Source: Actinomycetospora cinnamomea
Lineage (GTDB): Bacteria > Actinomycetota > Actinomycetes > Mycobacteriales > Pseudonocardiaceae
Assembly: GCF_003096675.1 (NCBI RefSeq)
Contig: NZ_QEKW01000005.1
Coordinates: 248,001 to 312,000, forward strand
Direction: 5' to 3'
DNA length: 64,000 nucleotides
In this document: one piece after another, positions 16,408 to 29,634 of the stretch
Position numbering within the stretch: position 1 is the first letter of the stretch
Layout of the letters: every line of letters begins with the position of its first letter
Position numbers and translations under genes: made by a program
Notes under the pieces: generated by a model
Told to the model about the DNA's origin: nothing
Database searches by the model: none
What the model saw: only the letters and a program-made list of their open reading frames with translations

Positions 16408-17958
16408 CTACGCGGGCGCGAACTCACCCGCAGCGTGGCGCTCGCGGAGCCGGTGCTTGACCAGCTTGCCGGTCGGCGTGCGGGGCAGGTCGTCGGTGAA
16501 CACCAGCCGTCGCGGCGTCTTGTACCGCGCGATGCACGCGCGGACGTGCTCGAGCAGCTCCTCGGCGAGGGCGTCGGACGGCTCGTGGCCGGGCGCGGGC
16601 TGGACGACGGCGAGCACCGACTCGCCCATCTCCTCGTCGGGCACGCCGACGACGGCGACGTCGAGCACCGCGTCGTGCAGCGTGAGCACGTCCTCGATCT
16701 CCTGCGGGTAGATGTTCACCCCACCTGAGATGATCATGAAGCTCTTGCGGTCGGTGAGGTACAGGAAGCCCTCGTCGTCGACGTGGCCCAGATCGCCGGT
16801 GGTCGTCCACGTCCCGTGCCCGGGGTGCTGTGCCGACCGCGTCTTGTCCGGGTCGTTGTGGTACCGGAACGGCACGATGTCGCGCTCGAAGTAGACGGTG
16901 CCGACCTCGCCCGCCGGGAGCTCGCGGCCCTCGTCGTCGCAGACGTGGATCGTGCCCAGCCCCGCGAGCCCGACCGAGCCGGGGTGCTCGAGCCACTGCT
17001 GCGGGCTGATGAACGTGATGCCGTTGGCCTCGCTCGAGCTGTAGTACTCGTAGAGCACCGGACCCCACCAGTCGATCATCGCCCGCTTCACCTCGACGGG
17101 GCACGGCGCGGCGGCGTGGACGGCGACGCGCAGGCTGGAGACGTCGTAGCGCGCCCGGACCTCCTCGGGCAGCTTGAGCATCCGCACGAACATCGTCGGC
17201 ACCCACTGGCTGTGGGTGACGCGATGGCGCTCGATCGCGGCGAGGGCCGCCTCGGGGTCGAAGCGGTGCATCATCACGACGGTGCCGCCGGTCGACTGGA
17301 TCGTGGCGCCGAAGCGCAGCGGCGCCGCATGGTAGATCGGCGCCGGCGAGAGGTAGACGGTGTCCTCGCCGAAGCCGTACATCGGCTTGAACACCGCGAT
17401 GTAGAGGTCGCCCGGCTCGTCGATCTGCCGGTCGGGCAGGTTCGGCTTGATGCCCTTCGGGCGGCCGGTGGTGCCCGAGCTGTAGAGCATGTCGCCGCCG
17501 CGGGGCTGGTCGGCCAGCGGCTCGGTGCTCTGCGCGCCCACGACCTCGTCGTAGTCCCGGTGGCCGGCGACGGGTCCGCCGAAGGCGAGGCGGAGGGTGA
17601 CCCCCGGGGTGCCCTCGACGATGGCCGTCGCCAGCCCGTCCTTCGCGGCCGAGACGACCAGTGCCCGGGCGCCGCAGTCGTCGACGATGTAGGCCGCCTC
17701 GTCGGGGGAGAGGTGATGGTTGACCGCGGTGACGAGGAGCCCGGCGCGCTGGGCCGCCCAGTAGACCTCGAAGGCGCGCGGGTGGTTGTCGGTGAGCAGG
17801 GCGACGACGTCACCGCGCCGCAGCCCGTGCTCGACCAGCGTGCGGGCCAGGCGGATCGAGCCGTCCTCGAGCTCGCGGTAGGTCAGGCCCTCGCCGGTCT
17901 CCGCCATGATCACCGCGGGGCGGTCGGGGTGGGTGGCGGCGAAGGTGCCCGGATACAT
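16408..17958 (-). CDS. Acyl-CoA synthetase (FadD-type, AMP-forming)
   Basis: A 516-residue ANL ligase. ATG 17958 is preceded by AAAGGAGA at good spacing, so a longer frame upstream is rejected. Motifs: LYSSGTTGRPKGIKP (P-loop, about residue 165), YEYYSSSEANG, DLGHVDDEGFLYLTDRKSFM, IISGGVNIYPQEIEDVL, and PRTPTGKLVKHRLR with the adenylation Lys. The SSEANG motif in place of the common STE(T/G) occurs in ligases for bulky or cyclic acids, so a sterol side-chain or other bulky acid is possible, but this is only inference. It is divergent from a tetR with a large palindrome between them. Confidence 0.93.
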   Translation of the reverse strand: MYPGTFAATHPDRPAVIMAETGEGLTYRELEDGSIRLARTLVEHGLRRGDVVALLTDNHPRAFEVYWAAQRAGLLVTAVNHHLSPDEAAYIVDDCGARALVVSAAKDGLATAIVEGTPGVTLRLAFGGPVAGHRDYDEVVGAQSTEPLADQPRGGDMLYSSGTTGRPKGIKPNLPDRQIDEPGDLYIAVFKPMYGFGEDTVYLSPAPIYHAAPLRFGATIQSTGGTVVMMHRFDPEAALAAIERHRVTHSQWVPTMFVRMLKLPEEVRARYDVSSLRVAVHAAAPCPVEVKRAMIDWWGPVLYEYYSSSEANGITFISPQQWLEHPGSVGLAGLGTIHVCDDEGRELPAGEVGTVYFERDIVPFRYHNDPDKTRSAQHPGHGTWTTTGDLGHVDDEGFLYLTDRKSFMIISGGVNIYPQEIEDVLTLHDAVLDVAVVGVPDEEMGESVLAVVQPAPGHEPSDALAEELLEHVRACIARYKTPRRLVFTDDLPRTPTGKLVKHRLRERHAAGEFAPA

Positions 17959-17978: not shown

Positions 17979-18020
17979 GCACTCGTGAGTGCTCGTCCGT
18001 GCCCTGGCACGGACGAGCAC
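17979..18020. promoter_or_regulatory. Overlapping palindromes between fadD and tetR
   Basis: GTGCTCGTCCGTGCC (17989-18003) and its exact complement (18006-18020) form a perfect 15-bp inverted repeat with a 2-bp spacer. A second palindrome, GCACTC-GT-GAGTGC (17979-17992), overlaps its left arm. The block starts 21 bp upstream of fadD. It is most likely the operator of the divergent tetR or a transcribed hairpin in the fadD leader. Confidence 0.6.
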
Positions 18021-18106
18021 GCACACGACCGGAGGTCAAACGCGCCGTAGAGTAGATTACGTTCTGGCGCAGGGGAACGGGCGCGAGCAGGGGGAGGTCG
18101 GGAGCC

Positions 18107-18712
18107 ATGCCGACGGCCACCCCGCGGTCCTACTTCGACGAGGCGCTGCGTCTGCTCGCGCGGGAGGGCCGCAACGGCCTGCGCATCGGGCGCCTGTGCG
18201 CGGCCCTCGGCGTCACCAGCGGCTCCTTCTACCACCACTTCGGCAGCTGGGAGGGCTTCGTCGCCGCGCTGCTGGAGCACTGGGAGCGCGAGGAGGTCGG
18301 GCGCATCGTCGAGCTGGTCAACGCCAGCGACGACCCGGTCGAGCGCGTGACGCGGATGAAGTATCTGGCGCTGACGGTGCCCCACGAGGCCGAGACCGCG
18401 ATCCGCGCCTGGGCCACCGTCGACCCCGTCGTCGACGCCGCGCAGCGCGCCGTCGACCGCGGGCGGCTGCGGGCGCTCGCCGACGTCCTCGCGCCGGTGA
18501 TCGACGACGCCGAGCGGCGCGAGCGCCTCGCCGCGCTGGGGGTCGCCGTGCTCGCGGGGCACCAGCAGATCGCCGGGGTGGCGAGCGTCGACCTGTCGTC
18601 GCTGCTGGACGAGTTCGACCTGCTCGTGCGCGCTCACTCCTCGGGGATTTGGGATCCGACGGTCCCCGACGACGCGCCGTGGCACGAGCAACCGGCGCGC
18701 GAGGACCGGTGA
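18107..18712 (+). CDS. TetR family transcriptional regulator
   Basis: A 201-residue regulator starting with ATG 18107. The HTH region is YFDEALRLLAREGRNGLRIG, then LCAALGVTSGSFYHHFGSWE (about residues 9-50). The C-terminal domain has the EAETAIRAWATVDPVVDAAQ block seen in a common actinobacterial TetR subgroup. It is divergent from fadD, with an extensive palindrome between the two start codons, so it very probably represses fadD and itself. A TAGAGTAGATTACG stretch at about 18051 could hold its -10 box. Confidence 0.9.
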   Translation: MPTATPRSYFDEALRLLAREGRNGLRIGRLCAALGVTSGSFYHHFGSWEGFVAALLEHWEREEVGRIVELVNASDDPVERVTRMKYLALTVPHEAETAIRAWATVDPVVDAAQRAVDRGRLRALADVLAPVIDDAERRERLAALGVAVLAGHQQIAGVASVDLSSLLDEFDLLVRAHSSGIWDPTVPDDAPWHEQPAREDR

Positions 18713-18808
18713 TCGGCGAGGTTCCCGACCCGGCCTGCACGCCGCGCCGAGGGGCCGCCCGCCCCGTCGTTCGTCCCGCCCTCGTGGTCGCTGGTGCGCA
18801 GGGAACGG

Positions 18809-18814
18809 CATACT
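18809..18814 (+). promoter_or_regulatory. Candidate -10 box for a leaderless universal stress protein mRNA
   Basis: CATACT (5 of 6 to TATACT) ends 6 bp before GTG 18821, so transcription would begin at or next to the start codon. There is no ribosome binding site before this GTG, which agrees with leaderless translation, common in actinobacteria. Confidence 0.45.
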
Positions 18815-18820
18815 CGCGCC

Positions 18821-19699
18821 GTGGCTGCGGAGGGACAGAGCGGACAGGTGGCCGGTTCGGTCGTCCTGGTCGGATTCGACGGCTCGCGGGAAGCGGCCGG
18901 AGCGATCGCGGTCGGCGCACGGGTCCTGCCCGGCGTGACCGCGCGCGTGGTCACCGTGTGGGCGCCACCGGGCGCGGACCAGGTGCTGCGTCGCCGGATC
19001 ACCCGCGACGCCCGCACCCTCGACGAGCTCAGCGCGCGGATCGAGCAGGAGTGCGCCGCCGCGGCGGAGGACGTCGCCGCGGACGGAGCGGCGCTGGCCC
19101 GGGCCGCGGGCTGGCGTGGGGAACCGGCCACCCACCGCGGCTTCGGCGACGCGGGGGCCGTGCTCGCCCGGCTCGCCGGGGAGATCCCCGCGGCGGCGCT
19201 GGTGGTCGGCTCACGGGGGCTGGGAGGCACGGCCGCGCTGCTGGGCAGCGTCTCCGATCTCGCGGTGCACCACAGCCCGGTCCCCGTGCTCGTCGTGCCC
19301 CCGCTGCTCCGCGGGGAACGCGCCGCCGCGGCCACGGGCCCGGTCCTCGTCGGGCACGACGGCTCGGCGGGCGCCGAGCACGCGCAGAGAACGGCGAGCG
19401 CCCTGCTGCCCGGGCGTGAGCAGATCGCCGTCCACGTCACCGACGACCGCCGCGCAGGGGCCGAGGCCGCCGAGCCCGGCCCGCCGGACGCCGTCACCGT
19501 GTCCGCGCGCGGGTGGGGGGCGCGGGCGATCGCCGATGCCCTGGACGCGGAGGCCGCGGCGCGGGACGCCGGTGTGGTCGTGGTGGGCTCGCGCGGGCGC
19601 ACGGCCCTGCGCGAGGTGCTGCTGGGGAGCACGGCGATGGCGGTGCTCCACCGCGTGCACCGACCGATCCTGGTGGTGCCGACGCCCGCGGAGCGGTGA
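18821..19699 (+). CDS. Universal stress protein, tandem UspA domains
   Basis: A 292-residue protein with two UspA domains. Domain 1 (about 10-160) starts with SVVLVGFDGSREAAGAIAVG and ends with VVGSRGLGGTAALLGSVSDL; domain 2 (about 170-290) starts with GPVLVGHDGSAGAEHAQRTA and ends with VVGSRGRTALREVLLGSTAM. The second glycine-rich block follows the ATP-binding G-2X-G-9X-G(S/T) pattern. Such tandem proteins bind ATP and accumulate in dormancy or hypoxia in mycobacteria. The start at GTG 18821 is preferred for its promoter spacing; GTG 18794 is possible. It is followed by a very strong terminator palindrome. Confidence 0.88.
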   Translation: MAAEGQSGQVAGSVVLVGFDGSREAAGAIAVGARVLPGVTARVVTVWAPPGADQVLRRRITRDARTLDELSARIEQECAAAAEDVAADGAALARAAGWRGEPATHRGFGDAGAVLARLAGEIPAAALVVGSRGLGGTAALLGSVSDLAVHHSPVPVLVVPPLLRGERAAAATGPVLVGHDGSAGAEHAQRTASALLPGREQIAVHVTDDRRAGAEAAEPGPPDAVTVSARGWGARAIADALDAEAAARDAGVVVVGSRGRTALREVLLGSTAMAVLHRVHRPILVVPTPAER

Positions 19700-19764: not shown

Positions 19765-20613
19765 TCAGTCGGCGTAGCGGGGCGCGCGCTGTTCGGCGAA
19801 GGCGGTGACGGCCTCGGTCAGGTCGTCCGAGAGCAGTGCCGAGGCGTTCCACGTCGCGATCTGGTCGAGGCCGTCGGCGACGGTGTGGTCGCGGGCGTAG
19901 GTGATCGCGTGCTTCGTGCCGCGCAGGGCCAGCGGGGACTTCGCCGCGAGGCCCCGGGCGACGTCCTGGACGTGGGCGACGAGCTCGTCGGCGTCCTCGG
20001 TGTCGACGACGGCGTTGACCAGGCCCCACGCCTCGGCCTCGGGTCCGCGCACGTCGCGGCAGGTGTAGGCCATCTCGCGCGCCCGGCCCTCGCCGACGAT
20101 CCGGGGCAGGCGCTGGAGCACACCGACGTCGGCGGCGAGCCCCATGTCCACCTCCTTGAGCGAGAACCTGGTGCGCGGGGTGGCGTAGCGCAGGTCGCAG
20201 GCGACGACGAGGTCGAGCCCCGCGCCCACGCACACGCCCTGGACCGCCGCGAGCACGGGCACCCGGCAGCGCTCGACGGTGGTGAGCACGTCCTGCAGGT
20301 CGAGGATCAGTCGGCGCAGGGCCTCCCGGGCGCGCCCCCCGTCGGCGTCGGCGGGGGCCATCCCCTGGATCTCCGCGAGCATCGACAGGTCGATGCCGGC
20401 GCAGAAGTGCTTGCCGGCACCCGCCAGCACGACCGCGCGCACGCCGGCCTCGGCGTCCAGCGTCCGGAACGTGTCGCGCAGTTCGCGCCACAGCGTGCGG
20501 TCCAGCGCGTTCGCGGCCTGCGGGCGCTCGAGGCGCACTGTCGCGACGCCGCCGTCGCGGCTGACGGAGAGGGCCGTCGGCGCCGCCGGGGCGTCGAGGT
20601 CGAGCATGCTCAC
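19765..20613 (-). CDS. Crotonase family protein, delta(3,5)-delta(2,4)-dienoyl-CoA isomerase-like
   Basis: A 282-residue enoyl-CoA hydratase/isomerase from GTG 20613, which has GGGAG eight bases upstream. The oxyanion-hole segments KHFCAGIDLSMLAE and GVCVGAGLDLVVACDLRYAT are present. The stretch SLKEVDMGLAADVGVLQRLP closely follows eukaryotic dienoyl-CoA isomerase (ECH1). All three acidic residues known from that enzyme are kept: Asp in GLDL, Glu in KEVD, Asp in AADVG. A role in oxidising fatty acids with odd-position double bonds is therefore the best guess. It is monocistronic and convergent with the stress protein gene. Confidence 0.85.
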   Translation of the reverse strand: MSMLDLDAPAAPTALSVSRDGGVATVRLERPQAANALDRTLWRELRDTFRTLDAEAGVRAVVLAGAGKHFCAGIDLSMLAEIQGMAPADADGGRAREALRRLILDLQDVLTTVERCRVPVLAAVQGVCVGAGLDLVVACDLRYATPRTRFSLKEVDMGLAADVGVLQRLPRIVGEGRAREMAYTCRDVRGPEAEAWGLVNAVVDTEDADELVAHVQDVARGLAAKSPLALRGTKHAITYARDHTVADGLDQIATWNASALLSDDLTEAVTAFAEQRAPRYAD

Positions 20614-20728
20614 GTCCGTGGCTCCCTTCGAGCTGGTGGTTCGCGCCGGACGCCGGCGTGGCCGTCAGGCTGGCACTCCCGGGCACCACACGAAGGGTGA
20701 TCGGGCGGTGACGCAGGTCTCGCCTCCG

Positions 20729-20734
20729 TAGCAT
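20729..20734 (+). promoter_or_regulatory. Candidate -10 box for the ferredoxin-P450 operon
   Basis: TAGCAT fits the actinobacterial TANNNT pattern and lies 55 bp before the ferredoxin ATG. It is inside an imperfect inverted repeat, CCGTAGC-N9-GTTACGG (20726-20748), which could be an operator. No good -35 is visible. Confidence 0.35.
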
Positions 20735-20788
20735 GACGCACGTTACGGTGGCCGCCGCTGCGGTCGCCGGAGGACGAGGAGGTCACCG

Positions 20789-20992
20789 ATGAGGATCGTC
20801 GTGGATTGGGACAAGTGCACCGGCATGGGCATGTGCGAGTCCCTCGCGCCGGACGTCTTCGAGGTGGACGACGACGGGTCGCTGATCCTGCACACCGAGG
20901 AGGTGTCGCAGGACCAGGAGGCCGAGGTCCGCGAGGCCGTCGCCGCGTGCCCCACCGAGGCGCTGTCGCTCGAAGGGCCGATCGACGCGTGA
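20789..20992 (+). CDS. [3Fe-4S]-type ferredoxin for cytochrome P450
   Basis: A 67-residue ferredoxin. Cysteines are C10, C16 and C54, in KCTGMGMC and AACPTEAL. The position that would hold the fourth ligand is Met13, so a [3Fe-4S] cluster is expected, as in other actinobacterial P450 ferredoxins. A GAGGAGG site lies eight bases before ATG 20789. The stop overlaps the GTG of the reductase (GTGA). It passes electrons from the reductase to the P450 encoded next. Confidence 0.93.
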   Translation: MRIVVDWDKCTGMGMCESLAPDVFEVDDDGSLILHTEEVSQDQEAEVREAVAACPTEALSLEGPIDA

Positions 20993-22257
20993 CGCACCTC
21001 GTGGTGGTCGGCGCGTCGCTCGCCGGCCTCCGGGCGGTCGAGGCCGTCCGGCGCGACGGGTTCGACGGCGAGGTGACCCTGATCGGGGCCGAGGAGCACC
21101 TGCCCTACGACCGCCCCCCGCTGTCCAAGGAGTACCTGGCCGCCGAGGAGTGCCCCGACCCGCGCTATCGCGAGGAGGAGACCTTCGCCGGCGACCTCGA
21201 CGTCGAGCTCCTGCTCGGCACGCCGGCGTCGGCGCTGGACACGGCGGCGCGGACGGTCACCGTCGGCGACCGCACGGTGTCCTACGACGGGCTGGTCATC
21301 GCCACCGGCGCGCACGCGCGGACCCTGCCGGGCACCGAGGGCCTCGAGGGCGTGCACACCGTGCGCACCCTCGACGACGCGATCGCCCTGCGCGCCGCCC
21401 TGCGCGGGGGAACCTCGCGGTTGACGGTCGTCGGGGCCGGCTTCATCGGCTCCGAGGTGGCCTCGGTGGGCCGCAGGCTCGGGCTCGAGGTGACGATCCT
21501 CGAGGCGCTGGAGACCCCGCTGGCCCGCGCCGTCGGCGAGCGGATGGGCCGCGCGCTGACCCACCTGCACCGCCGCCACGGCACCGAGGTGCACACCGGC
21601 GTCGCCGTCGAGGAGGTCGTCTCCCGGGACGGCCGGGTGCGCGCGGTGCGGCTGGGCGACGGCACCGAGATCACGACCGACGTGCTGGTCGTCGGCATCG
21701 GCGCCCGGCCCGCGACCGACTGGCTGGAGGGCTCGGGCCTGACCCTCGACGACGGTGTGGTCGCCGACGAGACCCTCGCCGCCGCGCCGGGCGTGTACGT
21801 CGCCGGTGACGTCGCCCGCTGGCCGAACGCGCTGTTCACCGACGTCGCCCCGGGCACCATGCGCCTCGAGCACTGGACCTCGGCGGCCGATCAGGGCGGC
21901 CGGGCCGCGCGCCACGCGGTCGACCCGGCGAGCGCGAGGCCCTACGAGACCGTCCCGTACTTCTGGTCGGACTGGTACGACGGCCGCGTCCAGTTCGTGG
22001 GGATCGCGGCCGGCGACCACGTCGAGGTCGTGGCCGGCGACGACGCCGAGGGCGGGCCGTTCACGGCGATCTACCGGGCGGGCGGGCGCATCGTCGGTGC
22101 CCTCGCCGTCGACATGCCCGCCGAGGTCATGAAGTACCGGCGCCTCATCGGGGCGCGCAAGAGCTGGGACGACGCCCTGGAGCTCGCCGAGCAGCGTCGG
22201 CAGCAGCGGGCCGAGAAGGCGCGGCAGGCCGCCGAGCAGCAGGGAGCCAGTGCGTGA
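20989..22257 (+). CDS. FAD-dependent ferredoxin reductase (NAD(P)/FAD oxidoreductase)
   Basis: A 422-residue pyridine nucleotide-disulphide-type reductase. It has the N-terminal FAD motif LVVVGASLAGLRAVEAVR, LPYDRPPLSKEYL near residue 42, the NAD-binding motif LTVVGAGFIGSEVASVGRRL near residue 142, the ATG-type VIATGAHARTLPG, and the second FAD motif GVYVAGDVARWPN near residue 265. The C-terminal reductase domain follows. Such enzymes take electrons from NAD(P)H to small ferredoxins. It overlaps both neighbours by 4 bp, so the ferredoxin, the reductase and the P450 are made as a set. Confidence 0.94.
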   Translation: MTHLVVVGASLAGLRAVEAVRRDGFDGEVTLIGAEEHLPYDRPPLSKEYLAAEECPDPRYREEETFAGDLDVELLLGTPASALDTAARTVTVGDRTVSYDGLVIATGAHARTLPGTEGLEGVHTVRTLDDAIALRAALRGGTSRLTVVGAGFIGSEVASVGRRLGLEVTILEALETPLARAVGERMGRALTHLHRRHGTEVHTGVAVEEVVSRDGRVRAVRLGDGTEITTDVLVVGIGARPATDWLEGSGLTLDDGVVADETLAAAPGVYVAGDVARWPNALFTDVAPGTMRLEHWTSAADQGGRAARHAVDPASARPYETVPYFWSDWYDGRVQFVGIAAGDHVEVVAGDDAEGGPFTAIYRAGGRIVGALAVDMPAEVMKYRRLIGARKSWDDALELAEQRRQQRAEKARQAAEQQGASA

Positions 22258-23528
22258 CCACCACGCCGGTCGCGGTCGACCCGGTCGACCTCTCCACCCT
22301 GGACTTCTGGGGCCGGCCGATGGCCGTCCGCGACGCCTCGTTCGCCGAGCTCCGTACCGAACGCCCGGTCTCGTGGCACCGGTCGCCGCAGGGCATGCTC
22401 ATGCCGTCCGAGGACGACGCCGGCTTCTGGGCCGTCGTGCGCCACGCCGACATCGGCTACGTCAGCAGGAACCCCCAGCTCTTCTGCTCGGGGCAGGGCG
22501 TGCAGTTCCAGGACGCACCCCCGGAGCTGCTCGAGGCGACGCAGTCGTTCCTGGCGATGGACGCCCCGCGGCACACGCAGCTACGCAAGATCGTGAGCGC
22601 GGCGTTCACCCCGAAGCAGGTGCGTCGCGTGGAGGACCGCATCGCCCACCGCGCCGAGCGGATCGTCGGTGACCTGATCGAGCACCTCGCGGACGGCACC
22701 GGGGGCGACTTCGTCGCGCTCGTGGCCAAGCGGCTGCCGATGGGCACGATCTACGACCTCATGGGCGCGCCCGAGGAGCACCAGGACGCGCTGGCCGAGG
22801 CCGCCGACCTGCTGGTCGCCATCAACGACCCCGACGTGCTGGAGAACCTGGGGCTCTCCGATCCGCTGCAGGCGGCGGGCCAGGCCCTCATGGCGCTCCT
22901 CGGGCCGGCGCTGGAGCTCGCGGAGGCCCGGCGGAACGCCCCGCAGGACGACCTCATGACCAACCTCGTGCAGGCCGAGGTGGACGGTCAGCGCCTCACC
23001 GACGACGAGATCGGTGCGTTCTTCGTGCTGCTCTCGGTGGCGGGCAACGACACCACGCGCAACACCATCGCGCACTCGATGCGCCGCCTGGTCGAGCACC
23101 CCGACCAGCGGGCGTGGCTGGCCGAGGACCTCGAGGCACGGATGCCGGCGGCCGTGGAGGAGTTCGTGCGCCACGCCAGCCCGGTGCTGACGTTCCGGCG
23201 CACCGCCACCCGGGACACCGAGCTCGGCGGGCAGCGCGTCGCCGCCGGGGACAAGGTCGTCATGTTCTACGAGTCGGGCAATCGGGACGCCGACGTCTTC
23301 GTCGACCCCCTGCGCTTCGATCTCTCCCGCGACCCCAACCCCCACGTCGGGTTCGGGGGTGGCGGACCCCACTTCTGCATGGGCAACATGCTCGCGCGCA
23401 CCCAGTTGCGGCAGATCTTCACGCAGCTCCTGAGGCGGGTCCCGGACCTGACCGTCGGCGAGGGCGAGATGCTGCGCAGCAACTTCGTGCACGCGGTGAA
23501 GACCATGCCCTGCTCGATCGGGGGCTGA
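22254..23528 (+). CDS. Cytochrome P450
   Basis: A 424-residue soluble P450 monooxygenase. The I-helix oxygen-activation motif is AGNDTT (263-268), the ExxR pair is at E303-R306, and the haem loop is FGGGGPHFCMGNMLAR with the ligand Cys near 375. The AGNDTTRNTIAHSM stretch and the FGGGGPHFC loop resemble the CYP124/CYP125/CYP142 group that hydroxylates sterol or branched-chain termini in mycobacteria, so a hydrophobic chain is the likely substrate; this is inference. The GTG start overlaps the reductase stop. Its redox partners are encoded directly upstream. Confidence 0.94.
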   Translation: MTTTPVAVDPVDLSTLDFWGRPMAVRDASFAELRTERPVSWHRSPQGMLMPSEDDAGFWAVVRHADIGYVSRNPQLFCSGQGVQFQDAPPELLEATQSFLAMDAPRHTQLRKIVSAAFTPKQVRRVEDRIAHRAERIVGDLIEHLADGTGGDFVALVAKRLPMGTIYDLMGAPEEHQDALAEAADLLVAINDPDVLENLGLSDPLQAAGQALMALLGPALELAEARRNAPQDDLMTNLVQAEVDGQRLTDDEIGAFFVLLSVAGNDTTRNTIAHSMRRLVEHPDQRAWLAEDLEARMPAAVEEFVRHASPVLTFRRTATRDTELGGQRVAAGDKVVMFYESGNRDADVFVDPLRFDLSRDPNPHVGFGGGGPHFCMGNMLARTQLRQIFTQLLRRVPDLTVGEGEMLRSNFVHAVKTMPCSIGG

Positions 23529-23570: not shown

Positions 23571-25883
23571 GTGGTGCAGCCGGTACGGGAGGAGGCCCGC
23601 CGCGACGGGTCCTCCCCGTCGACGATCGTGCTCTCCGGGGCGCGCTCGCGGGCCGAGCGCGAGCTGGTGCGTCGGTGGGCGGCCTCGACCTACGGTGACG
23701 ACGCGGCGCGGATCGTGGCCGACGACGCGCGCGAGCTGTCCGGTGCGCTCGAGGGTGCGGGCCCGGACACCGCGGTGGTGCCGGTCCGTGTCGTGTGGCC
23801 GCCCGCCGAGCGGAGCTCGGCCGACGCGCCGTCGGCCGCCGACCTGCTCTCGCTGTCGGCCCGACGTCGCGGCCTGCGCCACCTGCACGCGCGGCTACGG
23901 GGCTGGTCGGCGGAGAAGGCCCGGGTGGTGGCCGGCGAGGCCGCGACGCTCGCCGAGCTGCGCCGCGACGGCGACCGCGAGGTCGGGACGGCCGACGGGA
24001 CGGGGTTCGTCGCGTTCGTGCGACGGCGGGCGACGCTGGCCTGCGACCGCGCCGAGCGCCGGCTGACCGGGGACCGCTACAAGGTGCCGCGGCTGATGGC
24101 CGAGCAGATCGTCGCGTCGGCGGCGGTCCGCCGGCGCGCGGGGGCGGTGGCCGACGAGCTGGGCCTGTCCACCGACGAGGTGCTCGCCCACACCGCCCGC
24201 TGCCTCGAGGAGATGGCCGCGGTACAGAGCCCGCCGGCGATCGAGGCGTTCCGCTCCGTGATGAGCCCGCTGCACCGCCGCGCGTGGGATCTCGACGTGG
24301 ACGACGCGGGCCTGGAGGCGCTGCGCGAGGAGGGGCGGCGGCGCCCGCTGGTGTTCCTGCCCTCGCATCGCAGCTACGCCGACCCGCTCGTCCTCGCCGA
24401 GGTGCTGCACGCGCACGACTTCCCCCGCAACCACGTGCTCGGCGGCAACAACCTCGCGTTCTGGCCCCTGGGCGCGCTGGGGCGCCGCGCGGGCATCGTG
24501 TTCATCCGGCGCAGCTTCGGCGACGACACGATCTACAAGTTCGCCGTCCGCGAGTACTTCGGGCACCTGCTCGACAAGCGGTTCAACCTCGAGTGGTACA
24601 TCGAGGGCGGCCGCACCCGCACCGGCAAGCTGCGCCCGCCGCGCTACGGGCTGTTGCGCTACCTCGTCGACGCCGCCGACCAGCTCGACGAGGCCTCGGC
24701 CGGCGCCGACCCGCTGCTCGTCCCGGTCTCGATCAACTACGACCAGCTCCACGAGGTCGGGGCGCTGGCCGCCGAGCAGGGCGGCACGGGCAAGAAGGCC
24801 GAGGGCCTGGCGTGGCTCGCGGGCTACATGCGCGACCAGCAGCGGCGCATCGGTTCGGCGCGCATCCGCTTCGGCGAGCCGATCGGCCTGCGCGACGCCC
24901 TCGCCGAGGCCGGGGAGGGCCCGTCGCAGCTGGAGAAGGTGGCGTTCCGGGTCGCGGTCGGCATCAACCGGGCCGCGCCCGCGACGCCGACCGGAGTGGT
25001 CACGTTCGCCCTGCTCGGCGCCTGCGGACGCGCCCTGACCCTCGACCAGGTGCGCGCCGTGGTGGCGCCCGTGCGCGGGCTGCTCGGCGACGAGCCGGCG
25101 ATCGGCACGCTCGACACCGACGAAGGCCTCGTCGACACGCTCTGCCGGCTCGTGTCGGTGGGCGTGGTCGAGTGCTTCGAGGGCGGGCCCGAGCCCGTGT
25201 GGTCGATCGGCCCCGACCGCCACCACGTGGCCGCGTTCTACCGCAACGGCCTGCTGCACCACCTGCTCACCCGGGCGGTGCTGGAGATGGCGCTGTTCGC
25301 CGTGGTCGACGGGGGTCGCGAGCTCGCCGGAGACCGGGTCCTCGAGGCGTGCTGGGAGGCCGCGCTGGCCCTGCGCGACCTGCTCAAGTACGAGTTCTTC
25401 TTCTCCCGCAAGCGCGACTTCCGCGACGAGCTGCTCGCCGAGCTCGACCGCCTGGCGCCGGGCTACCGGTCGGCGCCCGCGTCCGCCCGCGGGGCCGCGG
25501 AACTGCTCTCCCGCGCCGAGCTGCTCGTCGCGCCCCGCACCCTGCTGCCGTTCGTCGAGGCGCAGTGGGTGGTGGCGACGGTGCTGGCCGCGCACGAGGG
25601 CGCCCTCGACGACCGCGCGTCGTTCCTCGACGCATGCACCGGGCTCGGCCGGCAGTGGTGGCGCCAGCAGCTCCTGCACGGTGCCGACGTGGTCTCCCGC
25701 GAGCTGTTCACCTCGGCGCTGCGGGCGGCGGAGAATCGCGCTCTGCTGGGCGCGGACGCGGATCCGGCCGCGCGGGCGGCGTGGCGCGACGAGGTCGCGG
25801 CGGTGCGCAACCGCCTGCGCCGGGCCGGGGAGCGGGAGCAGGCGCTGCGGGCGGAGGTGTTCGATGACGACGGCCGGCACTGA
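23571..25883 (+). CDS. plsB: Glycerol-3-phosphate 1-O-acyltransferase (PlsB type)
   Basis: Transfers an acyl group to glycerol-3-phosphate, the first step of phospholipid and triacylglycerol synthesis, at the membrane. The 770-residue length and order match mycobacterial PlsB2. The acyltransferase blocks are clear: FLPSHRSYADPLVLAE (HX4D, about residue 265), GIVFIRRSFGDDTIYKF, WYIEGGRTRTGKLRPP (about residue 345) and LVPVSINYDQLHE. The C-terminal about 300 residues are the family-specific helical part. The start is one of two adjacent GTG codons (23571 or 23574). Its last 20 bp overlap the start of plsC. Confidence 0.93.
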   Translation: MVQPVREEARRDGSSPSTIVLSGARSRAERELVRRWAASTYGDDAARIVADDARELSGALEGAGPDTAVVPVRVVWPPAERSSADAPSAADLLSLSARRRGLRHLHARLRGWSAEKARVVAGEAATLAELRRDGDREVGTADGTGFVAFVRRRATLACDRAERRLTGDRYKVPRLMAEQIVASAAVRRRAGAVADELGLSTDEVLAHTARCLEEMAAVQSPPAIEAFRSVMSPLHRRAWDLDVDDAGLEALREEGRRRPLVFLPSHRSYADPLVLAEVLHAHDFPRNHVLGGNNLAFWPLGALGRRAGIVFIRRSFGDDTIYKFAVREYFGHLLDKRFNLEWYIEGGRTRTGKLRPPRYGLLRYLVDAADQLDEASAGADPLLVPVSINYDQLHEVGALAAEQGGTGKKAEGLAWLAGYMRDQQRRIGSARIRFGEPIGLRDALAEAGEGPSQLEKVAFRVAVGINRAAPATPTGVVTFALLGACGRALTLDQVRAVVAPVRGLLGDEPAIGTLDTDEGLVDTLCRLVSVGVVECFEGGPEPVWSIGPDRHHVAAFYRNGLLHHLLTRAVLEMALFAVVDGGRELAGDRVLEACWEAALALRDLLKYEFFFSRKRDFRDELLAELDRLAPGYRSAPASARGAAELLSRAELLVAPRTLLPFVEAQWVVATVLAAHEGALDDRASFLDACTGLGRQWWRQQLLHGADVVSRELFTSALRAAENRALLGADADPAARAAWRDEVAAVRNRLRRAGEREQALRAEVFDDDGRH

Positions 25884-27300
25884 GCCGGCGGTGCTGGACG
25901 CCCGACGCGCGGCGATCCGCGCCGCCCCGGCGGGCAGCGTGGCGATCGTCGACGAGACCGCCCTGCTGGAGCGGTCGGCGGTCGCCGCCCACGTCGGCGA
26001 GGCGTTGCGCGCGGGGCGGACGGCGTGGCGCGCGCTGCCCGGCGACGTCGCGCTCCTTGCTAGTGCCGGTGCCGGTGCCGCTGCCGGCGCCGGGGACGAC
26101 GAGGCGGCGGTGCGACGCCTCGTGGCGTCGTGGGCCGGCGAGGACGCCGCGACCGTGGCGCAGCGCGCGCGGGCGGTCCTGCGCGACGACCTCGGCGCCG
26201 CCCTCCGGCCGCCGGTCTGGTCGCTCGTCGCCGAGCACCGGCGCGCCGGGCACCGCGTCGTGGTCACCGGGCACGCGCCCCGACCCGTGCTCGAGGCGCT
26301 GGCCGAGGACCTCGGCGTCGACGAGCTGGTCGCCACCGAGGTCGAGGTCCGCGACGGCGTGCTCACCGGCGAGGTCGACGGCCCGGTGCTGCTCGGCCCG
26401 CGCGGCGAGGCGAAGGCCGCGGCCGTGGTCGCCCTCGGCGCACGACCCGCCTTCGTGATGGCCGGGCCGTGCTCCGAGGCGTTGCTGGCCGCCGGTGACG
26501 GCCCGCTCGTGGTGACCTCCGGGAGCGCGGCGACGTGCGGCGGCCACCCGGTGCTGCCCGTGCCCCCGCGCAGCGGCGCGCTCCCGGGCCCGCTCGACGT
26601 CGGGCGCACCGCGGCGTTCTACGGCGCGCTGCTCGGGGCGGCGAGCACGGCGGCGGCGGTCGGGCTCGCCCGGCGCTCGCGGCGGCAGATGGTCGACCTG
26701 ACGTGCTCGGTCACGGGCGACCTCGGGCTCGCCCTCGCCGGCATCGACGTCGAGGTCCGCGGCGCGGAGCACCTGTGGTCGTCGCGCCCGTGCGTGTTCG
26801 TGTTCAACCACCAGTCCAAGGTCGACGTCGCGCTGCTGATGAAGCTGCTGCGCGGCGGCTTCACCGGCGTCGCCAAGGCCGAGGCGGCGTCGATCCCGCT
26901 GTGGGGCGCGATGTTCAAGCTGGCAGGGGTCGCGTTCGTCGACCGCGGCAACACCCGCCAGGCCCGCGAGGCGCTGGAACCCGCGGTGCGCAAGCTCCGC
27001 GACGAGGGCTGGTCGCTGGCCATCGCCCCGGAGGGCACCCGCTCGCCGACGCCCCGGCTCGGGCGGTTCAAGAAGGGCGCGTTCCACATCGCGCTGCAGG
27101 CCGGCGTGCCGATGGTGCCGATCGTCATCCACGACGCCGGCGAGGTGATGTGGCGCGGGCACCAGACGCTGCGTGCGGGCACGGTGCACGTCGACGTCCT
27201 GCCCCCGATCGACACCTCGGGGTGGAGCACGGCCACGCTCGACGAGCACGTCGCGGACGTGCGCGAGCAGTTCGTCCGGACCCTGGAGGGCGGCCCGTGA
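25864..27300 (+). CDS. plsC: PlsC-type acyltransferase with degenerate HAD phosphatase-like N-terminus
   Basis: A 478-residue fusion like mycobacterial PlsC (Rv2483c type): a HAD-like N-terminal half (about 1-230) and a 1-acylglycerol-3-phosphate acyltransferase (about 240-470). The acyltransferase motifs are intact: VFNHQSKVDVALLMK (HX4D), VAFVDRGNTRQAREAL, IAPEGTRSPTPRLGRFKKG and VPMVPIVIHD. In the HAD half, motif I reads VAIVDETALL, so the nucleophile Asp is replaced. The T of motif II (VVVTGHAPR) and the Lys of motif III (GEAKAAAV) remain, but a motif IV Asp pair is absent. The domain is therefore probably not an active phosphatase. It overlaps plsB by 20 bp and the next gene by 4 bp. Confidence 0.9.
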   Translation: MTTAGTEPAVLDARRAAIRAAPAGSVAIVDETALLERSAVAAHVGEALRAGRTAWRALPGDVALLASAGAGAAAGAGDDEAAVRRLVASWAGEDAATVAQRARAVLRDDLGAALRPPVWSLVAEHRRAGHRVVVTGHAPRPVLEALAEDLGVDELVATEVEVRDGVLTGEVDGPVLLGPRGEAKAAAVVALGARPAFVMAGPCSEALLAAGDGPLVVTSGSAATCGGHPVLPVPPRSGALPGPLDVGRTAAFYGALLGAASTAAAVGLARRSRRQMVDLTCSVTGDLGLALAGIDVEVRGAEHLWSSRPCVFVFNHQSKVDVALLMKLLRGGFTGVAKAEAASIPLWGAMFKLAGVAFVDRGNTRQAREALEPAVRKLRDEGWSLAIAPEGTRSPTPRLGRFKKGAFHIALQAGVPMVPIVIHDAGEVMWRGHQTLRAGTVHVDVLPPIDTSGWSTATLDEHVADVREQFVRTLEGGP

Positions 27301-28745
27301 GCACCACCGCGATGCCCGACCCCACCCCGCCGCGGGGCGACGACGGACGCCTGCTCTGGTCCCGCTCGGAGGAGCTCACCGGTTTCGAGGCGCTGATGTG
27401 GCGCGTCGAGGCCGACCCGCGGATGCGCTCCACCGTGGTCATCGTCGAGACTCTCGACCTCGAGCCTGACTGGGACCGGTTCGTCGCGGCCACCGACTGG
27501 GCCTCGCGCGTGGTCCCGCGCTTCCGCGAGCGGATCGTCACGCCCTTCCTCGGTGCCGGGACGCCGCACTGGGCGCTCGACCCCGACTTCGACCTGCACT
27601 ACCACCTGCGCCGTCTGCGACTGCCCGAGGGCGCGGGGTTGCCCGACCTGTTCACGCTGGCCGAGCAGACCGCGATGACCCCGCTCGACCCGTCCCGCCC
27701 GCTGTGGGAGGCGACGCTGGTGGGTGGGCTGCCCGACGGCGGGGCGGCGCTGCTGTTCAAGCTGTCCCACGTCCTCTCCGACGGCATGGGCCTGGCGCAG
27801 CTGCTGGCCGGGCTGCACTCGCGCACCCGCGAGCCGATGACCGACAAGCCGCAGCCCCCGCCCCCCACGGGTCCGCCGGCGACCCTGGGCCGCGAGCTGG
27901 CACGCCAGGTCCGCAGCGACCTCGGCCTCGTCGGTGGCGCCGCGCGGGGGGTGCTCGGGGCCGCCGCCTCGCTGGTGCGTCCCGACCGCGCGGTCCGCGA
28001 CGCCGCCGCGTACGTGGCCTCGGCCGCCCGGGTGCTCTCGCCGCCGCCCGCGCCGCCGCTGCCGGTGCTCGCGCACCGCAGCCCGTCGTGGCGCTTCCGC
28101 ACGCTCGACGTGCCGTTCGCCGCCCTGCGCGCGGCCGGGAAGTCGGTCGGCGGGTCGGTCAACGACGCCTACCTCGCGTCGTTGCTCGGCGCGTTCCGCC
28201 GCTACTCCGCGCGGCGCGGCGACCCGCTGCCGTCCGACCGGCTCATGCCCGTGACGCTGCCGGTGTCGGTGCGCCGCGAGGAGCACGAGCCGGGCGGCAA
28301 CCACTTCGCGCCCGCGCGGCTCTCGGCGCCGGTCGGGATCGTCGACCCTGCGGCTCGGGTCGTCGACGTGCGCCGGCGGATGAAGGCCGCGCTCGCCGAG
28401 CCCGCGCTGGAGAGCGTCGAGGTCGTCACGCCGTGGCTCGCGCGCCTGCCCGGCGCGCTCGTCGCCACCTTCGGCGGCGGCGCCACCCGAAGCAACGACC
28501 TGCAGGCGAGCAACATCCCCGGCCTGCGGCGCGACGCGTTCCTGGCCGGGGCGAAGATCGTGCGCAGCTACCCCTTCGCGCCGCTGCCCGGGTGCGCCGC
28601 GATGATCGCGATGGTCACCCACGGCGACACCTGCTGCGTGGCCGCCAACCTCGACGCGGCGTCGTTCGACGACCTGGCGGGGTTCGAGCAGGATCTCGCC
28701 GACGGGTTCGCCGAGGTGCTCGCCCTCGTGCCGGGGACGGCGTGA
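27297..28745 (+). CDS. WS/DGAT family acyltransferase (wax ester synthase / diacylglycerol acyltransferase)
   Basis: Esterifies diacylglycerol or fatty alcohols with acyl-CoA at lipid bodies. The 482-residue protein has the family N-terminus EELTGFEALMWRVEADPRMR and the C-terminal SNIPGLRRDAFLAGAKIVRS (PLW region RPLWEATLVGGLPDG near residue 138). The catalytic motif usually written HHxxxDG is SHVLSDG here; the second His, thought to be catalytic, and the DG remain. It follows plsB-plsC with a GTGA overlap, the same order as mycobacterial Rv2482c-Rv2484c, so the operon leads from glycerol-3-phosphate to storage lipid. Confidence 0.92.
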   Translation: MSTTAMPDPTPPRGDDGRLLWSRSEELTGFEALMWRVEADPRMRSTVVIVETLDLEPDWDRFVAATDWASRVVPRFRERIVTPFLGAGTPHWALDPDFDLHYHLRRLRLPEGAGLPDLFTLAEQTAMTPLDPSRPLWEATLVGGLPDGGAALLFKLSHVLSDGMGLAQLLAGLHSRTREPMTDKPQPPPPTGPPATLGRELARQVRSDLGLVGGAARGVLGAAASLVRPDRAVRDAAAYVASAARVLSPPPAPPLPVLAHRSPSWRFRTLDVPFAALRAAGKSVGGSVNDAYLASLLGAFRRYSARRGDPLPSDRLMPVTLPVSVRREEHEPGGNHFAPARLSAPVGIVDPAARVVDVRRRMKAALAEPALESVEVVTPWLARLPGALVATFGGGATRSNDLQASNIPGLRRDAFLAGAKIVRSYPFAPLPGCAAMIAMVTHGDTCCVAANLDAASFDDLAGFEQDLADGFAEVLALVPGTA

Positions 28746-28810
28746 CCCCTCCGGCCCCTCCCGCGCCGTTGCCCGCCGACCACCCCGTCCCCGAGGAGGC
28801 GCCCGCATGA
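28742..28810 (+). CDS. Possible 22-residue translational-coupling peptide
   Basis: A Pro/Ala-rich 22-codon frame whose GTG overlaps the acyltransferase stop (GTGA) and whose stop overlaps the lipase ATG (ATGA). It keeps ribosomes moving through the 61-bp gap between the two genes. It may be a coupling device rather than a functional protein. No family can be assigned. Confidence 0.4.
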   Translation: MTPPAPPAPLPADHPVPEEAPA

Positions 28811-29634
28811 CGAGCACCGAAACCGACCTGGAGATCGACGGCCGCCGCGGGCGCGTCGTCGTCCGGCGACGCGAGCCCGACGGCGCGCCGCGGCGGGTCG
28901 TGCTGCTCGCGCACGGGTACGGCGAGCACTCCGGGCGGTACGCCCACGTCGTCGACCACCTCGCCGCGGGCGGTGCCGTCGTCTACGCGCCCGACCACCT
29001 CGGGCACGGGCGCTCCGAGGGCGAGCGCGTGCTGGTCGACGACGTCGACGAGATCGTCGACGACCTCGACCAGGTGCGGCGCACGGCGCGCAACGAGCAC
29101 CCGGACCTGCCGATCGTGCTGCTCGGGCACTCCATGGGTGGGCTCATCGCCACCCGCTACGCCCAGCGCTTCCCCGACGTCCTCGCCGGCCTCGTGCTCA
29201 CCGGACCGATCGTCGGCGGGAGCCCGGCGATCGCGGGCCTGCTCGAGTACGACGAGATCCCCGATGTGCCCATCGACCCCGCGGTGCTCTCCCGCGACCC
29301 CGCCGTCGGCGAGGCCTACGCCGAGGACCCGCTGGTGTGGCACGGGCCGTTCAAGCGCCCGACCCTCGAGGCGCTCGTGCGCTCGGTCGAGGACGTCGGC
29401 GCGGGTCCGGGGTTCGGCGAGCTGCCCGTGCTGTGGGTGCACGGCGAGGACGACCAGCTCGTCCCGCTCGAGCCGACACGGGCGATGATCGAGCGCCTGC
29501 GCGGCAGCGACCTCACCGAGCGCATCGACCCCGGCGCCCGCCACGAGGTGCTGAACGAGACCCACCGCGACGAGGTCCTCGCCGACGTCTCGACCTTCCT
29601 CGACCGCGTGTGCAGCGCACCTACTCCCCGGTGA
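28807..29634 (+). CDS. Alpha/beta hydrolase, monoacylglycerol lipase-like
   Basis: A 275-residue serine hydrolase. It has VVLLAHGYGEHSGRYAHVVD with the HGxxEHSxRY block typical of monoglyceride lipases (oxyanion site, about residue 35), YAPDHLGHGRSEGE, the nucleophile elbow VLLGHSMGGLIA (Ser near 113), Asp in VHGEDDQLVP (about 220) and His in GARHEVLNE (about 247). It resembles mycobacterial Rv0183. Located after the triacylglycerol synthesis genes, it would recycle monoacylglycerol. It overlaps the convergent cinA by 14 bp at the 3' end. Confidence 0.92.
   Translation: MTSTETDLEIDGRRGRVVVRRREPDGAPRRVVLLAHGYGEHSGRYAHVVDHLAAGGAVVYAPDHLGHGRSEGERVLVDDVDEIVDDLDQVRRTARNEHPDLPIVLLGHSMGGLIATRYAQRFPDVLAGLVLTGPIVGGSPAIAGLLEYDEIPDVPIDPAVLSRDPAVGEAYAEDPLVWHGPFKRPTLEALVRSVEDVGAGPGFGELPVLWVHGEDDQLVPLEPTRAMIERLRGSDLTERIDPGARHEVLNETHRDEVLADVSTFLDRVCSAPTPR

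Follow-up and report, generated by a model that had tools for sequence, protein, structure and literature searches.

How far can a cytochrome P450 gene that overlaps a reductase gene, which in turn overlaps a ferredoxin gene, be taken as part of a self-contained system, and which substrate and which regulator would such a system have? This question is raised by the fdx-fdR-cyp trio of the soil bacterium Actinomycetospora cinnamomea, found in a 64,000-nucleotide stretch of contig NZ_QEKW01000005.1 (positions 248,001 to 312,000; hereafter the window). An initial annotation, made from the letters alone, described the trio as a self-contained P450 system with a lipid-type enzyme, flanked by a dienoyl-CoA isomerase-like gene and a glycerolipid operon. 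The reading favoured here, to which we give a probability of roughly 0.6 on sequence grounds, is that of a class I P450 system under probable TetR control, which would oxidise a branched or terpenoid-type lipid that the acyl-CoA ligase FadD, encoded nearby, activates.

The trio and its reductase across the genus

The locus has the three-component architecture of class I systems, with an FAD reductase, an iron-sulphur ferredoxin and a P450 encoded by separate adjacent genes. The GTG start of fdR at 20989 shares 4 bp with the TGA of fdx, and the GTG start of cyp at 22254 shares 4 bp with the TGA of fdR; both GTGA overlaps had been annotated correctly to the nucleotide, and the Pfam domains of the three products bear out their assignments (Table 1). 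The gene order, Fdx-FdR-CYP, is not the electron-flow order that had been claimed, because electrons pass from NAD(P)H to FdR, then to Fdx, then to CYP. The closest-matching named relatives are from Actinomycetospora, and 18 genomes of this genus were searched with FdR and with PlsB, the product of the gene that follows cyp (loci are designated by L numbers and genomes by G numbers). The order Fdx-FdR-CYP-PlsB is found in ten of them, referred to as clade A (loci L092-L101 and L122-L131), while the eight genomes of clade B have Fdx-CYP only. The trio stands beyond chance because it is kept in 10 of the 18 genomes. The FdR-CYP overlap is 4 bp in all nine clade-A loci measured (the window and eight named loci, G212 being left out), and a 4-bp Fdx-FdR overlap is present in four of these, the other five having a gap of 3-4 bp.

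The ferredoxin has the three cysteines initially reported, in the motif CTGMGMC...CP, with Met at the variable position of CXX?XXC; it follows the three-Cys pattern CXX?XXC(X)nCP with a non-Cys residue at '?', and its cluster is probably [3Fe-4S], judging from this motif. Across 45 distinct ferredoxin matches in the loci collected, tallied by a regular expression (and by eye for L033, which has Leu), the variable residue is most often Leu (22), followed by Met (10), His (7), Ile (5) and Ala (1). All ten Met ferredoxins come from clade A, and the ferredoxins of clade B have Leu. A survey of Mycobacterium marinum gives His, Thr, Tyr, Asn, Phe and Ser at this position, and for other ferredoxins Ala, Gly and Asp (PMC6237146). 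Met is not listed in the main text of that survey, and no paper joining CXXMXXC with ferredoxin and P450 turned up in a literature search. The Met-type ferredoxin is a small variant.

A similar trio is FdR1/Fdx3/CYP147G1 of M. marinum, in which a reductase, a three-Cys [3Fe-4S]-type ferredoxin and a CYP are co-located, and in which CYP147G1 depends strictly on its own ferredoxin, Fdx3; it differs in its P450 family, which is CYP147 there and CYP268-like here, and in its ferredoxin motif, which has Tyr there and Met here (PMC6237146). The mycobacterial pairs Rv0763c/CYP51 and Rv1786/CYP143 likewise set a short ferredoxin gene beside a CYP gene, but they have His at the variable position, and no adjacent reductase is listed for them in Table 1 of the same survey. 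Nor does that table list a ferredoxin or reductase gene beside CYP268A2, the closest solved relative of the window P450. By sequence, the parts belong to known kinds, namely a class I P450 system, as in FdR1/Fdx3/CYP147G1, and a CYP268-like enzyme.

Whether the reductase belongs to this P450 only is a separate matter. It could be a house-wide P450 reductase feeding many P450s of the genome, in which case the trio would not be functionally self-contained, and we hold this to be a serious contender, a little short of even odds. The genomes of clade B speak for it and against self-containment: in all eight (L132-L139), neither Fdx nor CYP is matched within 1.5 kb of the best FdR (67-69%), and the Fdx-CYP pair is sited elsewhere (L029-L032, L203, L206-L208). 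The FdRs of the genus form a single orthologous group (18 rows, support 100/100), and since FdR stands apart from Fdx-CYP in 8 of the 18 genomes, it may serve other P450s. The A. cinnamomea genome itself has about 21 P450 genes, counted as distinct places, with one more fragmentary place and four FdR-like matches, and in the clade-B locus L137 the orthologous FdR is overlapped by a glyoxalase-like gene. The constant FdR-CYP overlap in the clade-A loci measured argues against a house-wide role, as do the loci listed outside the genus, where a ferredoxin match lies directly before FdR in 19 of 24 and a CYP match within 1.5 kb of FdR in 6 of 24. The Fdx-CYP pair has either gained or lost the reductase, and the dedicated reductase of the initial annotation was dropped as unproven after the FdR tree.

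Two further arrangements were seen among these loci. At L137:712-3377, and similarly at L133, the glyoxalase-like gene overlaps the 3′ end of the orthologous FdR gene and a divergent L,D-transpeptidase gene lies upstream. Wider-clade CYPs occur in CYP-Fdx-FdR clusters with CYP first (L044, L048, L052, L054), and a clade-A genome holds a second cluster of this order (L163; G135:C55), with FadD and Ech matches.

Identity of the P450 and of the neighbouring ligase

The top solved match to the window CYP is CYP268A2 of M. marinum (PDB 6bld), with 466 bits and an identity of 54.6% by BLAST, or 55.0% over 409 residues. A P450 is assigned to a family at an identity of at least 40% to one of its members, which the window CYP passes for CYP268, and the usual subfamily cut is 55%, right at which it stands. 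In a tree of 93 rows, the window CYP and CYP268A2 fall into a 79-row clade (support 99/97) in which their branches are separate; this clade leaves out the CYP124-like L059 and the CYP125-like L062, respectively 45% and 40% identical to the window CYP. A second tree, on a hand-picked 38 of these rows with most long rows omitted, gives the same split with a clade of 31 rows (99/98). Approximately unbiased (AU) tests reject the joining of the window clade with L059 (p 0.00055) and with the CYP125-like L061+L062 (p 0.021). The 93-row tree left out 29 loci, three with cut CYPs and the others extra copies of included CYPs, apart from those of G212, a clade-A genome with no other representative in the tree. 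Nine long loci (L161-L169) were also left out, their CYPs repeating others in the set. Eight long rows were flagged in the tree; L047, L058 and L060 lie inside the 79-row clade, and L059 is among those outside it.

The initial annotation had likened the enzyme to sterol or lipid omega-hydroxylases and called for a phylogeny against CYP124, CYP125 and CYP142. The lipid type stands, with CYP268A2 as best match, but the enzyme lies outside CYP124 and CYP125, and membership in any of the three families is rejected by trees, identities and AU tests, CYP142 being judged by PDB score alone. The methyl-branched lipid omega-hydroxylase CYP124A1 is among the closest solved CYPs (342-356 bits), but its proxy L059 is outside the clade. 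The window P450 is CYP268-like by sequence, with CYP268 as its nearest named relative. Such a cluster is not described in the CYP268-mentioning literature searched, and a search joining Actinomycetospora with P450 and ferredoxin returned nothing; both covered the literature outside subscription papers, to which the CYP268A2 paper belongs.

CYP268A2 reportedly hydroxylates the terminal methyl of branched substrates. Several points weigh against carrying this placement and chemistry over to the window enzyme. L059 is a long branch in both trees, which limits the trees and the AU test alike, and the second-best solved matches are two chains named CYP125MRCA (385-389 bits), reconstructed ancestors going by the name. 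Moreover, Ser99 and Gln209, which we take to be polar contacts of CYP268A2, are replaced by Thr96 and Leu212 in the window CYP. The Leu212 objection is softened by L063, which is 77% identical to CYP268A2 and carries Val at the Gln209 position.

The neighbouring ligase has PRK13390 (743.6 bits) and FadD4 (615.2 bits) as its best NCBIfam models, both scores being below the curated cut-offs. In a quick tree it groups with the clade-B FadD found near tetR and CYP (98% in the SH-like approximate likelihood ratio test), and a FadD of 72-74% lies near Fdx-CYP in five of the eight clade-B loci (L009, L010, L011, L018, L161), none being found within the stretch examined in L007, L008 and L014. The sister clade comprises 16 CYPs, eight of which have a FadD (58-63%) less than 100 bp upstream (L015, L016, L034, L036, L076, L077, L084 and L090, the CYPs of L034 and L036 being identical). 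The FadD is about 1 kb off in the near-identical L035 and L037 and about 2.5 kb off in L044 (seen in L163); L047 has a partial match of 42%, and no FadD was seen in L013, L033, L045 and L046. Of the 28 rows of the CYP268A clade, 27 had loci, mostly with 1.5-kb flanks, and none of these showed a FadD of at least 50%. A carboxylate-activating partner would fit a CYP acting on lipid acids.

A different FadD lies directly before plsB in four of the eight clade-B genomes (L102, L103, L105, L109), a ligase-acyltransferase link without a P450. This plsB-linked FadD was considered as the orthologue of the window FadD and is unsupported by the quick FadD tree.

The ligase also bears on a second alternative, in which the CYP would be a sterol side-chain C26/27 hydroxylase like CYP125 or CYP142, and which we regard as improbable. 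It draws on the rank of the CYP125MRCA chains and on the matches to CYP125 (about 284-290 bits) and CYP142 (about 193 bits), yet CYP268A2 scores higher, the CYP125-like grouping is rejected, though only at the p value given above, and FadD matches PRK13390 and FadD4 far above the steroid-24-oyl-CoA synthetase model (235.6 bits).

A palindromic site common to two promoters

New here is a palindromic site common to the fdx promoter and the fadD-tetR interval, a useful regulatory finding. The 24-base site is present upstream of fdx in nine clade-A and seven clade-B aligned loci, and in L161. A position weight matrix built on seven fdx sites of clade B, two being identical, and on none from the window finds its two best independent places in the window at 20728 (score 30.9) and 18047 (19.5), the next scoring 10.7, and the maximum over 60 simulated Markov-1 windows is 17.8. 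In clade B, the second site beside tetR reaches at least 14.9 with an all-site matrix in six of the eight loci (L007, L009, L010, L011, L018, L161); for the fadD-tetR site of clade A, the scores are 15.6-17.2 at five loci, one of them the window, and 11.8 at L005 and L017. The distant relatives L039 and L049 have a 47-48% TetR flanked by similar sites.

A search pattern drawn up to match the two window sites, with up to two mismatches allowed, gave 63 matches across the 18 genomes, the reversed-pattern control giving 16. All 22 matches with 0-1 mismatches are located either upstream of fdx or in the fadD-tetR interval, in 17 of the 18 genomes; 19 of these were placed by viewing the loci and three (G219, G220, G221) by a distance or position equal to the L002-L004 sites. 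The other 41 matches have two mismatches, and 12 of them fall at the same two promoters, mostly on the opposite palindrome strand. Altogether, the P450 system is probably under the control of the neighbouring TetR through the two predicted sites.

There is also evidence that tells against such control. The second site is weak in L008 and L001 (below 10 in the latter) and falls outside the top five places of L014. The trio is kept even in L006, where there is no tetR match and no fadD-tetR site and where the fdx site has decayed; G218, apparently the genome of L006, has no match with 0-1 mismatches. The sister-clade loci scanned (L015, L016, L167, L044) have no site near the CYP, and no consensus -35/-10 promoter elements were found. 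The zero-mismatch scores of both window sites are by design, because the pattern was fitted to them, and 29 of the 41 two-mismatch matches lie elsewhere, unexplained, against 16 for the reversed pattern.

Several two-mismatch matches in G042 and G075 share GTGACGTGGGGCAGGTTCCGG, perhaps a repeated element or else a coding motif that has nothing to do with the operator. Between fadD and tetR, the window also contains a perfect inverted repeat at 17989-18020, with 15-bp arms and a 2-base loop, absent from this interval in the seven clade-A loci compared.

Flanking genes, proposed mechanism and significance

Table 1. Features of the locus, with positions in the window.
Feature	Position	Strand	Description
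fadD	16408..17958	-	FadD4-like acyl-CoA ligase, orthologous to FadDs linked to CYP; likely start ATG 17956-17958, reading frame open to 18120
Palindromic site, second copy	18047..18070	+	Between fadD and tetR
tetR	18107..18712	+	Probable repressor of fadD/tetR and fdx-fdR-cyp
usp	18794..19699		Between tetR and ech
ech	19765..20613	-	Dienoyl-CoA isomerase-like crotonase, divergent from fdx
Palindromic operator-like site, fdx-proximal	20728..20751	+	Upstream of fdx
fdx	20789..20992	+	67-residue single-cluster ferredoxin, three Cys (C10, C16, C54); Pfam Fer4_15
fdR	20989..22257	+	FAD-dependent NAD(P)H ferredoxin reductase, putidaredoxin-reductase type; GTG start; Pfam Pyr_redox_2 + Reductase_C
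cyp	22254..23528	+	P450 (Pfam p450); GTG start; AGNDTT, ExxR (E303-R306) and heme Cys375 all present
plsB	23571..25883	+	Glycerol-3-phosphate acyltransferase, 42 bp after cyp
HAD phosphatase-PlsC fusion	25864..27300	+	Start estimated; reading frame open from 25681
tgs	27297..28745	+	Wax ester synthase/diacylglycerol acyltransferase (WS/DGAT)
Alpha/beta hydrolase (Hydrolase_4)	28807..29634	+	61 bp beyond tgs; may be the final gene of the operon

Both flanks of the trio are as initially described. The closest solved relatives of ech are dienoyl-CoA isomerases, with 1dci as best match (E 9.5e-60), then 2vre and 8sk6, and the glycerolipid operon begins directly downstream of cyp. The usp gene was rejected as a member of the module, being found at that place in one of the eight named clade-A loci (L012 only).

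In all ten clade-A genomes, plsB lies 3′ of cyp on the same strand, at 9-102 bp from match to match; in the eight clade-B genomes, the loci fetched around Fdx-CYP have no PlsB match and the best plsB is elsewhere. Co-transcription of cyp and plsB is probable, and the gap of 42 bp makes read-through into plsB-plsC-tgs plausible, though limited to clade A; the tie between the P450 system and the glycerolipid operon is no more than suggestive. It has a biosynthetic interpretation, in which the CYP would make oxygenated acyl chains to be built into glycerolipids by PlsB, PlsC and the WS/DGAT enzyme. The constant position of plsB in clade A favours such tailoring, but the clade-B loci do not share it and the divergent ech argues for breakdown, which leaves this interpretation unlikely. 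That the trio landed upstream of plsB by chance, the shared site being a relic, is very doubtful: clade B is without the plsB link and the second site is weak or missing in some genomes, but both clades keep the site before fdx, and most of their loci keep it beside tetR too.

In the favoured model of a TetR-controlled class I system, FdR would take a hydride from NADH, a preference suggested by an acidic residue that follows the second nucleotide-binding strand, and would hand single electrons to the three-Cys ferredoxin, which in turn would reduce the CYP. The CYP268-like enzyme would act on a lipid acid or ester of branched or terpenoid type, oxidising its terminal methyl or a carbon close to that end, FadD would turn the resulting acid into a CoA ester, and the dienoyl-CoA isomerase-like enzyme would assist beta-oxidation. 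The neighbouring TetR, as the presumed binder, would repress fadD/tetR and fdx-fdR-cyp, with one site in each promoter, so that ligase and oxygenase would switch on together, while read-through into plsB-plsC-tgs would couple oxidation to glycerolipid storage. A bolder proposal, to which we attach little credence, is that a two-promoter TetR regulon joins the complete P450 redox chain, the acyl-CoA ligase and glycerolipid assembly, that Actinomycetospora thereby produces and stores terminally oxidised branched-acyl glycerolipids, and that the Met ferredoxin is a cluster-environment variant unlisted for M. marinum.

Many bacterial P450s are without known cognate redox partners, and for one CYP268-like enzyme the locus supplies a ready set of candidates. 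Its probable private regulator and its ligase partner narrow the substrate search, and the genus as a whole offers a natural comparison for specificity, with the reductase inside or outside the cluster and Met or Leu in the ferredoxin motif.

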